Of a stretch of DNA of 64,000 nucleotides, positions 17,275-32,200 are shown in pieces (positions within the stretch are counted from its first letter, which is position 1; the number at the start of each line of letters is the position of its first letter). Origin of the DNA: Pycnococcus provasolii (lineage: Eukaryota; Chlorophyta; Pseudoscourfieldiophyceae; Pseudoscourfieldiales; Pycnococcaceae); assembly GCA_938743325.2 (NCBI GenBank), contig OW568862.1:1217501-1281500 (forward strand), in the 5' to 3' direction. The notes below the pieces were generated by a model. It was given only the letters and a program-made list of their open reading frames with translations, made no database searches and was not told where the DNA came from. A program made the position numbers and the translations under genes.

Positions 17275-17293
17275 TTAACCCTAACCCTAACCC
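17275..17293 (+). repeat. Interstitial telomere-like tract 5
   Basis: Three CCCTAA-type units about 85 bp upstream of the start of the selenoprotein gene. Confidence 0.85.
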
Positions 17294-17376
17294 CCGGGTT
17301 CGGGAAATCTCGGGGGCAAATCTGAAATCTTGGGGCAGTTTCTTTGCTGGCCTCACACTTTTGGAAAATAATAAAT

Positions 17377-18330
17377 ATGGCGTCCCTCCCCCTATCTTCC
17401 GCCGGAGTGATGGCGCTCTCACGCCTCCTCGGAGTCAGAAGCGTGCCTTCGCCTTCTTGCCTTACTTCTCGTCTGCCTGGCTCCTTCGCATTCCTCTCGT
17501 CGTCGTCCACTCCGTCGTCATCATCCCCGTCTTCTCCTCCTCCTCGCGTCATTCCCGTCGAGCTCATCAGCGATACCATGTGACCCAACGGATACATCGG
17601 CAAACGACACCTCGTCAACGCTATGCACGAGGTGATGCGCGAGCCGATGGATGCTTCAAGGCCTGCTGGGTTTGCCGTACTGCGTGTCCCGTTCTTCCTC
17701 GAGCCTGACTATCCCGAAGATTCGAGTTTCGAGGAGACGAATCTCAACAGACTGCAACGCAAGTGGGGAGGAAAGGCGGAATTTGAGGCGCAGAAAAATA
17801 GACACATGCTCAAGGAGCGTGGCCACGAGGTGGGCATTCCTCGGTTCGACAACAAGAGAACTGCAAGCAACACCATGGCGAGCCACAGGCTCGTTCAGTG
17901 GGTCACGAGGGAGTACGGCTCGGAGCTGGCTGAGAAACTTTACCAGGAATTGAACTACAACCACTTCGAGCTCGGGCAGAAGCTGAACGACGAGGAGTTT
18001 CTCGCGCGAGCAGCGGCATCTGTCGGTGTGAGCCGCGACGATGCGCTGCACGTAATTCGAAACGGAGTGGGAAGAGAGTACATACAAGCGGCACAAAAGC
18101 TTCTGCGTCGCATGGGTATTCACTCGATCCCTACGTTCATCGTCGACGGGAAGTATGTCTTAGGTGGCGCAGTGCCTGCCCGCGAGCTGGTCGAGCTCTT
18201 CCGTTCCATAGAGACGTCGCCAGACGAAGAGAGCGGCGGATTCGTCTTTGCCGAAGCTCTTGGCATACCCGCAGAGCGCTTGGCAGAATCACTGCCAATG
18301 CCTGACAGGGTGTACGAAGCGATCGCGTAG
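17377..18330 (+). CDS. DsbA/FrnE-like thioredoxin-fold selenoprotein (in-frame TGA decoded as Sec)
   Basis: Predicted thiol/selenol oxidoreductase of the DsbA-like FrnE group, 317 aa if TGA 17581-17583 is read as selenocysteine. The upstream 204 bp encode a Ser-rich targeting peptide and then VIPVELISDTM. The same frame continues after the TGA as PNGYIGKRHLVNAMHEV. In the family this place reads D-x-x-C-P-W-C-Y-x-G, so the TGA replaces the first catalytic Cys exactly and Gly replaces the second, giving U-P-N-G. Downstream, FFLEPDYPEDSSFEETNLNR, NTMASHRLVQWVTREYG and the cis-Pro loop IHSIPTFIVDGKYVLGGA are family-typical. A SECIS-like hairpin follows in the 3' UTR (18385-18448). Start 17377 is the first ATG in frame. 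A spurious stop in a pseudogene is the alternative, but the rest of the frame is intact. Confidence 0.85.
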
Positions 18331-18384
18331 GGAGGAGTCTCATCTTCCTCACAGTTCGTGCATCATACAAATTTGCGTGCTTGA

Positions 18385-18448
18385 GTGAAAGGCGTCGGAC
18401 TGAAAACCATTGGTGGTTCTGCATACCACTCTTCCGACCGCCTGGACA
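18385..18448 (+). promoter_or_regulatory. Candidate SECIS element (form II) in the 3' UTR
   Basis: Starts about 55 nt after the TAG stop. The 5' quartet strand is GTGA(A) and the 3' strand is GGAC, which allows tandem G-A/A-G pairs. Directly above, AGGCGTCGGA pairs with TCCGACCGCCT with one bulged base. The apical part begins CTGAAAACC, giving the unpaired A-run 13 nt after the quartet. An extra mini-helix, GGTGGT with ACCACT, makes it form II. The 5' quartet has G instead of the commoner A before TGA. The lower helix is weak. Read with the in-frame TGA of the upstream gene, it supports Sec decoding. Confidence 0.75.
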
Positions 18449-27762: not shown

Positions 27763-28010
27763 CGTCGTCGTGCCTCGTCTTGCTTCACCGCCCTCATCAC
27801 CACGTCATCGCGCTGAGCTATCGGCAAGGGCACGCGACCTCCTTGCTGACCTGAGCGACGACGACGACGACGACGACGACGACATGGCCGCGGCCGCGGC
27901 TCTTGCCCGTTTGATTGTGCAGGAGGGCGTTGCCCCAGGTGCCTGTCAGACAAGCGAAGGAGGGGAGTGTTGAAGGGCGGTGAGTGGTGATGGCGATGGC
28001 GGAAATGGCC

Positions 28011-28331: not shown

Positions 28332-29174
28332 GATAACGGTTTCTCACGTGCTCGCTGGCCCATGCAAGATAGGATCCCCGAATCCCCAATGACCCGAAGC
28401 GATAACGGTTTCTCACGTGCTCGCTGGCCCATGCAAGATAGGTTCCCCGAATCCCCAATGACCCGAAGCGATAACGGTTTCACTGGAGGAAGCCGGCCCA
28501 TGCAAGATAGGATCCCCGAATCCCCAATGACCCGAAGCGATAACGGTTTCTCACGTGCTCGCTGGCCCATGCAAGATAGGTTCCCCGAATCCCCAATGAC
28601 CCGAAGCGATAACGGTTTCTCACGTGCTCGCTGGCCCATGCAAGATAGAATCCCCGAATCCCCAATGACCCGAAGCGATAACGGTTTCACTGGAGGAAGC
28701 CGGCCCATGCAAGATAGGTTCCCCGAATCCCCAATGACCCGAAGCGATAACGGTTTCACTGGAGGAAGCCGGCCCATGCAAGATAGGTTCCCCGAATCCC
28801 CAATGACCCGAAGCGATAACGGTTTCTCACGTGCTCGCTGGCCCATGCAAGATAGGATCCCCGAATCCCCAATGACCCGAAGCGATAACGGTTTCACTGG
28901 AGGAAGCCGGCCCATGCAAGATAGGATCCCCGAATCCCCAATGACCCGAAGCGATAACGGTTTCACTGGAGGAAGCCGGCCCATGCAAGATAGGATCCCC
29001 GAATCCCCAATGACCCGAAGCGATAACGGTTTCACTGGGGGAAGCCGGCCCATGCAAGATAGGTTCCCCGAATCCCCAATGACCCGAAGCGATAACGGTT
29101 TCACTGGAGGAAGCCGGCCCATGCAAGATAGGATGCCCGAATCCCCAATGACCCGAAGCGATAACGGTTTCACT
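28332..29174. repeat. 69-bp minisatellite, 12 full copies
   Basis: Unit of 69 bp (23 codons) from GATAACGGTTTC to CCCAATGACCCGAAGC. Two variant middles alternate irregularly: TCACGTGCTCGCTGG (A) and ACTGGAGGAAGCCGG (B). The order is A A B A A B B A B B B B, followed by a partial unit. A second polymorphic site (GATCC, TTCC, AATCC or GATGC) varies independently. Because 69 is divisible by three, both strands are open for about 290 codons; a protein is possible but nothing identifies a start or family. 28056-28331 upstream shows nothing recognisable beyond a doubled ACAACGGGGCG motif. Confidence 0.95.
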
Positions 29175-29294: not shown

Positions 29295-32200
29295 ATGGGT
29301 GGTGGGTTCAAAGGGTTAGGCACGACGACGCCTACGTCCGCAAATAAACAGCTGCCACCGCTTATGCCGGTGACGCCAGGGACGATGAGACTCGCAAGAC
29401 TCCCGTCGGTGGAAGGGCGCGGCCGAGGCGGATTCACACCCGCACGGAAAACCAGACAAAGGACGCCTGGGTGCCTGAAACGCCCGCGGCAGCACCGGCA
29501 CAGTACCACGAAAGCAGCAGTGTCGCAGCCACGCCGGCGGCACACACAACTTCCGTGAGATTACAAGAGGCTGCAAAAACAACACCAGCCGGTCGCTTGT
29601 CGTCGAGCATCTTCAACCTGCTCCCACAGCTGGCAAGCGAGCGGTACCAGAACTTTATCAACGAGGTGCACGACGCGACGGCGAAGCTCTCCTCGTCACC
29701 CGGCTCGGTGGAAGAGTTTGTTGCGTACATCGAGTTCATGGAGTCTTGCCTCGCTAAGCGAAGTGATTTTGATGACGAATTCATGCTGGTCACGGCGTAC
29801 TACGAGCTCATCGAAGAGTACCACATTCAGGTGCCGGACATCGATCACGCGGCGTTCAAGACGCTCCCGACGGACTTCAATGCGTACAAGGGCTCGCTTG
29901 ACTTCGCGGAAGGCAGCCACGAGGAGCGTGAGATGAAGTTCAGCTCGGACCTCGAGCGAGAGGTGGAGGGTGTCGGCAAGGAGGTTGCGGACATTCGCGT
30001 GCTCGCAGGACACGAGATGATTCTCGACGGGTCTGCCAAATCGAGCGAGGTCATTGAGCTCACCACCCGCCTCGTGTCGAAGGTGGAGGAGCAGAAGGCG
30101 CAGGCAAAGCGCATTCAGAAGTATCAGAGGCTCTTCAAGGTGTTCGAGACTTCGTTCGAGGATATCGACGAGTGCAGCGAGGAGGTGACGTTAAAGCACA
30201 CCCTTTGGACTGGCTCGTAGCCTGCACAGGTCGTCATCTCCGTAAGTCAGACGTACTGGTGCGCCGCGACGACACAGTGCCTCGAGCAGACGGAGCGCCC
30301 CACCAAGGATGCGCTGGACGAGTGGCGCAAGGTCAACGTCAGTCAGCTCGTGGAACTTTCCGAGGTGGTGCGGCAGGACCTGACGGGTCTGCAGCGCAAG
30401 ATTGTCGTCTCGCTCATCACGATTCATGTGCATGCTCGCGACATTGTCGAGAATCTCATGGCTGATAACGCCACGCGTTCCACGGATTTTGAGTGGCAAA
30501 TGCAGCTCAGGTACTACTGGTACGAGGAGAACGAAGCGACAGTTGTGCGTCAGACGAACGCCACTTTCATCTACATGTACGAGTACCTTGGCGCGCAGAG
30601 CCGCCTTGTCGTCACGCCGATGACAGATCGCTGTTATATGACTTTGACTGGTGCGCTTCACCTCAAGCTTGGCGGTGCACCCGCCGGACCCGCCGGAACG
30701 GGAAAAACAGAGACAACGAAGGATCTCGGCAAGGCTCTCGGCGTTCAGTGCGTCGTCTTCAACTGCGGCGACAACCTCGACTACAAATTCATGGCAAATT
30801 TCTTCTCGGGACTTGCGCATTGCGGCGCGTGGGCGTGCTTCGACGAGTTCAATCGCATCGATATCGAGGTGCTATCGGTCGTCGCGCAGCAGCTTCTGAC
30901 GATCCAAAATGCGCTCAAGGCGGAGGTGTCAAAGTTCAACTTCGAGGGCAAGGAGATTCGCCTCGTCCCAACTTTCGGTGTCTTCATTACGATGAATCCG
31001 GGATACGCAGGTCGAACGGAGTTGCCGGACAACCTTAAGGCGCTGTTCAGGCCGATGGCCATGATGATTCCCGACTACGCTCTCGTGGCTGAGTTGATGC
31101 TGTATGCCGAAGGGTTCGCCGACGCCAAAACTCTAGCGCGAAAGATGGTTAAGCTGTACAAGCTCTCCAGCGAGCAGCTGAGCCAGCAGGATCACTACGA
31201 CTTTGGCATGCGTGCTCTGAAGTCCGTGCTTGTGATGGCAGGTTCGCTCAAGCGTGCCAACCCAACATTGTCCGAGGATGTGACGCTCATCCGCGCTATG
31301 CGCGACTCGAATGTGCCCAAGTTCCTTAAGGATGACGCCGCGCTGTTCCGCGCAATTTTGCTTGACCTCTTCCCCGGCGTGGAGGTGCCGCTGAACGACT
31401 ACGGTGACCTGCAGACAGCGGTGGAGGCGAGCCTCGTAAACGCGGAAAAGCAGGTGGTGGACGAATTCGTTCTCAAGACGATCCAGCTGCACGAGACATT
31501 CAACGTTCGATTCGGAGTCATGCTCGTGGGTCCCACGGGTGGTGGCAAGACGGTCGTGTATCAGACTCTCAAGGCGGCGATGACGATTGCTCCGTGAGCA
31601 GAAGCACAAGGACGACACGTACCAAGTGACGCACACGTACACGTTCAACCCGAAGTGCATCAAGATGGGTGAGCTGTACGGCGAGTACAACCTCATGACG
31701 AACGAGTGGACGGATGGACTCGGCTCCACGCTCATCCGCAACGCCGTCGCCGACACGACCAACGATCGCAAGTGGGTTGTATTCGACGGTCCCGTGGATG
31801 CCATCTGGATCGAGAACATGAACACGGTGCTTGACGACAACTGCACACTCTGCCTGCCAAACGGCGAGCGCATCAAGCTCAACCCAGTGACGATGCACAT
31901 GCTGTTCGAGGTGCAGGACCTCGCCGTGGCGTCGCCCGCCACCGTAAGCCGATGTGGCATGGTGTACGTGCCTCCGGAGGAGCTTGGCTGGATGCCGTTC
32001 GTAAAGACTTGGGTCCGCCAGCTTGGAAGAGAGCTTTCGAACGAGGATGTGAAGGTGGAGCTGACTCCGGAGACGATCGAATTCGTCGAAAGGCTCTTCG
32101 ATCGGTACTTGCCCGAAGGTTTGGAGTATGTGCGCAAGAACTGCAAGGAGGCGATACCAACGGTTGATATTAACCTCGTGACGTCAACGGCAAACATCTT

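Follow-up and report, generated by a model that had tools for sequence, protein, structure and literature searches.

Does an in-frame TGA in a gene of the green alga Pycnococcus provasolii end translation or encode selenocysteine (Sec, or U), and what kind of enzyme would the second reading give? We addressed this for a locus within a 64,000-nt stretch of genomic DNA, here called the window. With TGA read as U, the frame at 17377-18330 encodes 317 residues, its sole internal TGA being codon 69, and then ends in TAG. We refer to the gene and its product by the motif U-P-N-G at this codon. The features of the locus, in window coordinates, are as follows.

17377..17547, + strand: N-terminal extension, residues 1-57, a probable organelle transit peptide (judged from composition, as is the targeting)
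17548..17580, + strand: coding sequence before the putative Sec codon, residues 58-68, first thioredoxin-fold strand (IPVELISDT identical in homologue P0088; strand 57-65 in the structure model)
17581..17583, + strand: in-frame TGA, putative Sec codon, residue 69 (aligned with the first Cys of the FrnE CPWC and with U24 of the paralogue)
17581..17592, + strand: active-site motif U-P-N-G at the start of predicted helix 70-88 (translation; structure model)
17584..18327, + strand: coding sequence after the putative Sec codon, residues 70-317, DsbA/FrnE fold
17623..18330, + strand: database gene model of 235 aa starting at Met83, past the TGA (P0002, NCBI "DSBA domain-containing protein [Pycnococcus provasolii]"), equal to an open reading frame (ORF) of the window
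18130..18132, + strand: Pro252 (S-I-P), in the place of the thioredoxin-fold cis-Pro and invariant in 33 rows of the homologue alignment
18328..18330, + strand: TAG stop codon
18385..18447, + strand: SECIS-like element, form II, with GUGA, helix II, AAAA apical loop, mini-helix, and 3′ GGAC

Pro252 would be cis, as is general in the thioredoxin fold.

The frame reads as one protein on both sides of the TGA. The Pfam DSBA match covers residues 61-268 (2.3e-14), and the alignment with FrnE of Deinococcus radiodurans (5cnw, 5coh, 5xwh), which shares the DsbA-like fold over residues 56-285, also crosses the TGA, placing CPWC opposite U-P-N-G and the first catalytic position of FrnE opposite U69. 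A preliminary description of the locus had proposed exactly this, namely, a single DsbA/FrnE-like protein with the TGA on the first catalytic Cys of CPWC and Gly in place of the second Cys; the alignments, coordinates, and translation bear it out. Apart from the TGA at 17581-17583, the frame is intact. The window contains a single instance of the pattern [U/C]PNG[Y/F]IGK, and 100 shuffles contained none. As all five ORFs taken as neighboring genes end in TGA, the codon also serves as a stop in Pycnococcus, and we rejected a reassignment of the genetic code. In the portion compared, the database protein has R where the window encodes M, and it is possibly not from an independent assembly. Residues 1-57 contain no D or E, 4 K or R, and 21 S or T, a composition that suggests a transit peptide and hence a probable organellar location; in the predicted structure, residues 1-8 and 20-43 have a pLDDT below 50. 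Just upstream of the gene, at 17275-17294, lies a short telomere-like stretch, TAACCCTAACCCTAACCC.

Two homologue searches (8000 candidates scored and 120 of 195 matches listed in the first; 120 of 406 matches listed in the second) yielded 239 distinct proteins among the matches listed, to which all family counts refer. Named members among these matches come from Pycnococcus, the cryptophyte Hemiselmis, and the diatoms Thalassiosira, Cyclotella, Conticribra, Cylindrotheca, Ditylum, Eucampia, and Mayamaea. The position equivalent to Sec was identified by the motif and by its distance from the conserved RVPFFLEP block. It is not reached in 214 of the 239 listed homologues, and another 21 extend further back with nonhomologous sequence before (G)YIGK, which is probably intron read as protein. 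The motif is covered in the remaining four, CPNG in P0088 and WPNG in P0124, P0133, and P0151, all of them xPNG following EL[IV]SDT. P0088 is the only Cys form at this position among the listed homologues, and both the IPVELISDT before it and the PNGYIGK after it are identical to those of the UPNG protein. The in-frame TGA therefore sits where a homologue has Cys, between conserved flanks, as expected for a eukaryotic selenoprotein. Given the match of P0088 around the motif, what the shorter models lack is most likely a genuine, conserved segment. A FastTree tree of 241 proteins places P0088 in a group with P0122, P0128, and P0216, all three too short to reach the Sec position, and the three W proteins in separate small groups. 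Such scattered placement fits translation of TGA as W under code 4, which is probably the origin of the three tryptophans; TGG is also possible. With residues 54-98 alone as the query, a search yielded one candidate and no match.

The preliminary description had also pointed to a form II SECIS-like hairpin beginning 55 nt past the stop, and we recovered it as a GUGA-type element at 18385-18447, a candidate SECIS in the putative 3′ untranslated region (UTR), whose 10-bp helix carries one bulge. With a first descriptor, its score (21.0) equaled the largest among 300 random 1-kb pieces (99th percentile, 20.7), which were drawn from the same window and may include the element itself. A second descriptor ranked it first of 61 matches on both strands of the window by combined score (35.0, versus 34.6 for the next) and second by helix score alone; one of eight Markov-randomized single 64-kb strands held a slightly better match (35.5). 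With a third descriptor it scored 24.0, and one match in the window, at 29555, scored higher. We rejected that match as a SECIS, as it lies inside an ORF, and likewise a descriptor match at 27987, which lies at an inverted repeat. A tandem array at 28357-29174 of the window consists of a 69-bp unit in 11.9 copies with 92% matches and is open in several frames on both strands. Applied to both strands of 61 other genome loci (205,218 nt, some loci overlapping each other), the third descriptor gave 24 matches scoring at least 16, 14 at least 18, and 9 at least 20; from the last figure, about 1% of genes would by chance have a match of at least 20 in the 400 nt past the stop. This gives good support for a SECIS, short of proof. 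As free RNA, the 111-nt region folded no better than shuffles (z, −0.73), and the trimmed element reached a z of −1.87. Rfam returned no SECIS match for the UPNG gene in the window, which is uninformative, since it found none in any of the 11 Sec loci of the genome. A MAFFT alignment of six SECIS candidates left the helices unaligned and hence gave no covariance model. The element shares with the SECIS elements of Ostreococcus described by Lobanov et al. in 2007 a G preceding the quartet and a long mini-stem (PMC2375036).

Besides the UPNG gene, 10 genome loci have TGA at a position judged to be catalytic, and the hairpin resembles those past several of these genes. They are given below with the third-descriptor score in the 400 nt past each stop, against 24.0 for the UPNG gene; names finer than the Pfam family are our own assignments.

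L002 1477-2178, − strand: another FrnE with Sec (U-P-W-C), followed by a GUGA-type SECIS-like element from nt 126 past the stop (27.3)
L005, L007, L008, L009: GPX, TGA at the catalytic position (L005, 7.0, no convincing element; L007, no match, irregular element only; L008, 10.4, a longer element visible by eye only; L009, 22.5)
L010, L011: SelT-like and SelW-like, TGA at the catalytic position (19.1 and 19.7)
L013, L015: MsrA, TGA at the catalytic position (L013, 25.3; L015, no match, no convincing element)
L038, around 1576: PDI-like protein, TGA in a U-G-H-C active site, SECIS-like element past the stop (16.1)

The frame of L015 is not simple, as TAA codons lie within its match. A thioredoxin match at C6:500684 with one TGA and one TAA was dropped from the count. 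Genome searches with PF13911 gave no TGA loci, and those with PF00578 gave a single one, already in the list. Telomere-like repeats similar to TAACCCTAACCCTAACCC also occur near L002, L007, and L008.

By sequence comparison, the genome also encodes machinery for Sec insertion, namely, tRNA-Sec, eEFSec, SecS, and a SelD domain. The tRNA-Sec, with anticodon UCA, is at C2:1211690-1211775 (L003 1500-1586, − strand). It lies on the same contig as the UPNG gene, some 6 kb ahead of the window and 23 kb away from the gene, a proximity that is probably coincidental. SecS was matched in two pieces (446.5 bits together). Of 22 genome matches to the bacterial SelB model, none exceeded the cutoff (best, 186.6 bits); the third of these, L026, is eEFSec by comparison with the human protein (1.5e-150 to 5izk). 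The selenophosphate synthetase domain was matched with 265 bits. This domain (L089, C14:757116-758039, − strand) lies in an 825-aa open frame behind an apparent NADH-dehydrogenase-type domain; an Ndh-SelD fusion has been reported in Ostreococcus (PMC2398784).

These observations have to be weighed against two readings in which the codon is not Sec. The TGA could be a real stop, with translation restarting at Met83 and the 235-aa database protein as the functional product. P0002 is exactly this product, and 129 of the 239 listed homologues begin at the same aligned position, 83; a shared start there is, however, what gene callers are expected to produce on meeting a Sec TGA. By the structure model, strand 1, the catalytic residue, and the greater part of helix 70-88 in the active site would be missing from the shorter product, and the residues ahead of the TGA are conserved (IPVELISDT in P0088; ELVSDT in P0124, P0133, and P0151). 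We consider a restart very unlikely. A pseudogene or sequencing error, in which a Cys codon (TGC or TGT) was mutated or miscalled as TGA, is more improbable still. TGA is indeed one base away from the Cys codons, and P0088 has Cys at the position, but P0002, even if possibly not an independent assembly, likewise begins past the TGA, most of the listed homologues are truncated around the same point, the remaining frame is intact, and a SECIS-like element lies downstream of the gene. We therefore favor, with a probability of about 0.9, the reading that the product of the UPNG gene is a eukaryotic selenoprotein with the DsbA/FrnE fold, UGA 69 being read as Sec, a recoding that we infer from sequence. 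Decoding would be carried out by tRNA-Sec and eEFSec, directed by the SECIS in the 3′ UTR.

The active site departs from that of known FrnE proteins. The UPNG protein has the DsbA thioredoxin fold, with FrnE closest, and lacks the CXXC or UXXC of the FrnE subfamily, the second Cys being Gly; for this reason, we file it as a divergent, FrnE-derived subfamily apart from the dithiol FrnE proteins. FrnE of D. radiodurans has, in addition to CPWC, a C-terminal CXXXXC that is thought to regenerate the active site (PMC8945050). This second motif, present in many FrnE proteins, is absent from the UPNG protein, which has one Sec and no other Cys in the domain; its sole Cys, at residue 28, belongs to the presumed transit peptide. 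Among the 239 listed homologues, which are mostly truncated, Cys columns shared with the UPNG protein each occur in at most 33, and 124 lack Cys altogether. The preliminary description had regarded the lost resolving Cys as unusual. The loss itself stands, but it is not peculiar to this gene, as all four homologues covering the motif read xPNG; with no Cys column conserved among the listed homologues, it looks like a family trait.

In dithiol oxidoreductases of the thioredoxin fold, the second Cys releases the substrate. With Gly in its place and no other conserved Cys found, an enzyme working with one Sec is to be expected, and an enzyme of this fold having only one Sec would need release by an outside thiol. 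The extension would direct the protein to its probable site of action, the mitochondrion or plastid. There the Sec selenolate, at the start of the active-site helix in the place of the first Cys of FrnE, would attack an oxidized substrate (a mixed disulfide, disulfide, or peroxide), and an external thiol, glutathione for example, would then restore the selenolate from the resulting selenenylsulfide or selenenic intermediate, as in GPX or monothiol glutaredoxins. Glutathione seems the likeliest reductant by analogy with these enzymes and with the perhaps nearby kappa-class glutathione S-transferase (GST) fold. Taking the absence of Cys together with the fold analogy, we lean slightly toward a one-Sec mechanism with regeneration by an external thiol. 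A real Sec protein might instead act like a kappa-class GST or HCCA isomerase, as a glutathione-binding transferase or isomerase and not an oxidoreductase; this we regard as doubtful, though less so than either reading without Sec. Our best reading of the sequence is that the UPNG protein would be a FrnE-derived single-Sec oxidoreductase, probably organellar and regenerated by an external thiol.

Sec-containing DsbA and FrnE proteins of algae are already known, and the UPNG protein is a variant of them. The available text of earlier reports places Sec-containing FrnE in Mamiellophyceae and Mesostigma (PMC6627142) and counts DsbA as one of the most widespread Sec families in algae (PMC7539508); the UPNG protein resembles these proteins, whose motifs are not printed in the text compared. 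The Pycnococcus U-P-W-C protein P0241, 31% identical to the UPNG protein, looks like a canonical Sec-FrnE that keeps the resolving Cys. The Sec-DsbA of Ciona, amphioxus, and Micromonas, with U(or C)XXC and, in Ciona, a form II SECIS, likewise has Sec for the first catalytic Cys but retains the second, where the UPNG protein has Gly (PMC2874816). The DsbA-domain selenoprotein "DsbA 3" (UxxV) of the GOS marine metagenome survey, a rare entry (first count column, 5), also lacks the second Cys, with Val where the UPNG protein has Gly (PMC2398784). Ostreococcus has a "thioredoxin-fold protein" and hypothetical proteins 1-3, and Thalassiosira has a thioredoxin-like selenoprotein (PMC2375036); compared by description only, these are, like the UPNG protein, algal or diatom selenoproteins, one group having the thioredoxin fold. 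In the accessible part of a 2026 review of prokaryotic selenoproteins, UxxG appears for other families only, and DsbA-like proteins have UxxC or DxxUP (PMC13188914). Our literature search, made chiefly among the main texts of freely available papers, turned up neither a DsbA/FrnE family with UPNG or UxxG nor a selenoproteome of Pycnococcus. The available main text of PMC7539508 does not contain "UPNG," "UxxG," or "Pycnococcus," and PMC8629427, which pairs Pycnococcus with selenoproteins, is a genetic-code screen whose available text mentions selenoproteins once, in the methods. Published sets of DsbA proteins from algae may already include UPNG proteins without remarking on them.

Two family peptide patterns and single-protein scans found no confirmed relative in viral or prokaryotic contig collections, and on this ground we rejected a prokaryotic or viral origin of the UPNG protein. 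The back-translated motif gave 13 matches (1 in a viral contig and 12 in prokaryotic ones), all out of FrnE context. Judged from their protein sequences, relatives of the UPNG protein would also use Sec, and entries cut near the Sec position may conceal a broad group of selenoproteins from algae. It seems somewhat more likely than not that the UPNG proteins form a wide, eukaryote-only family of phytoplankton selenoproteins that have given up the resolving Cys of FrnE, act as one-Sec, thiol-regenerated organellar enzymes, and are hidden in databases because most entries start past the Sec codon.

If this is true, a family that keeps Sec without the resolving Cys would offer a natural experiment on the replacement of a dithiol mechanism by selenium. 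Many phytoplankton proteins, including those of diatoms, would then be annotated without their active sites, and selenium dependence would accordingly be undercounted in gene catalogues.
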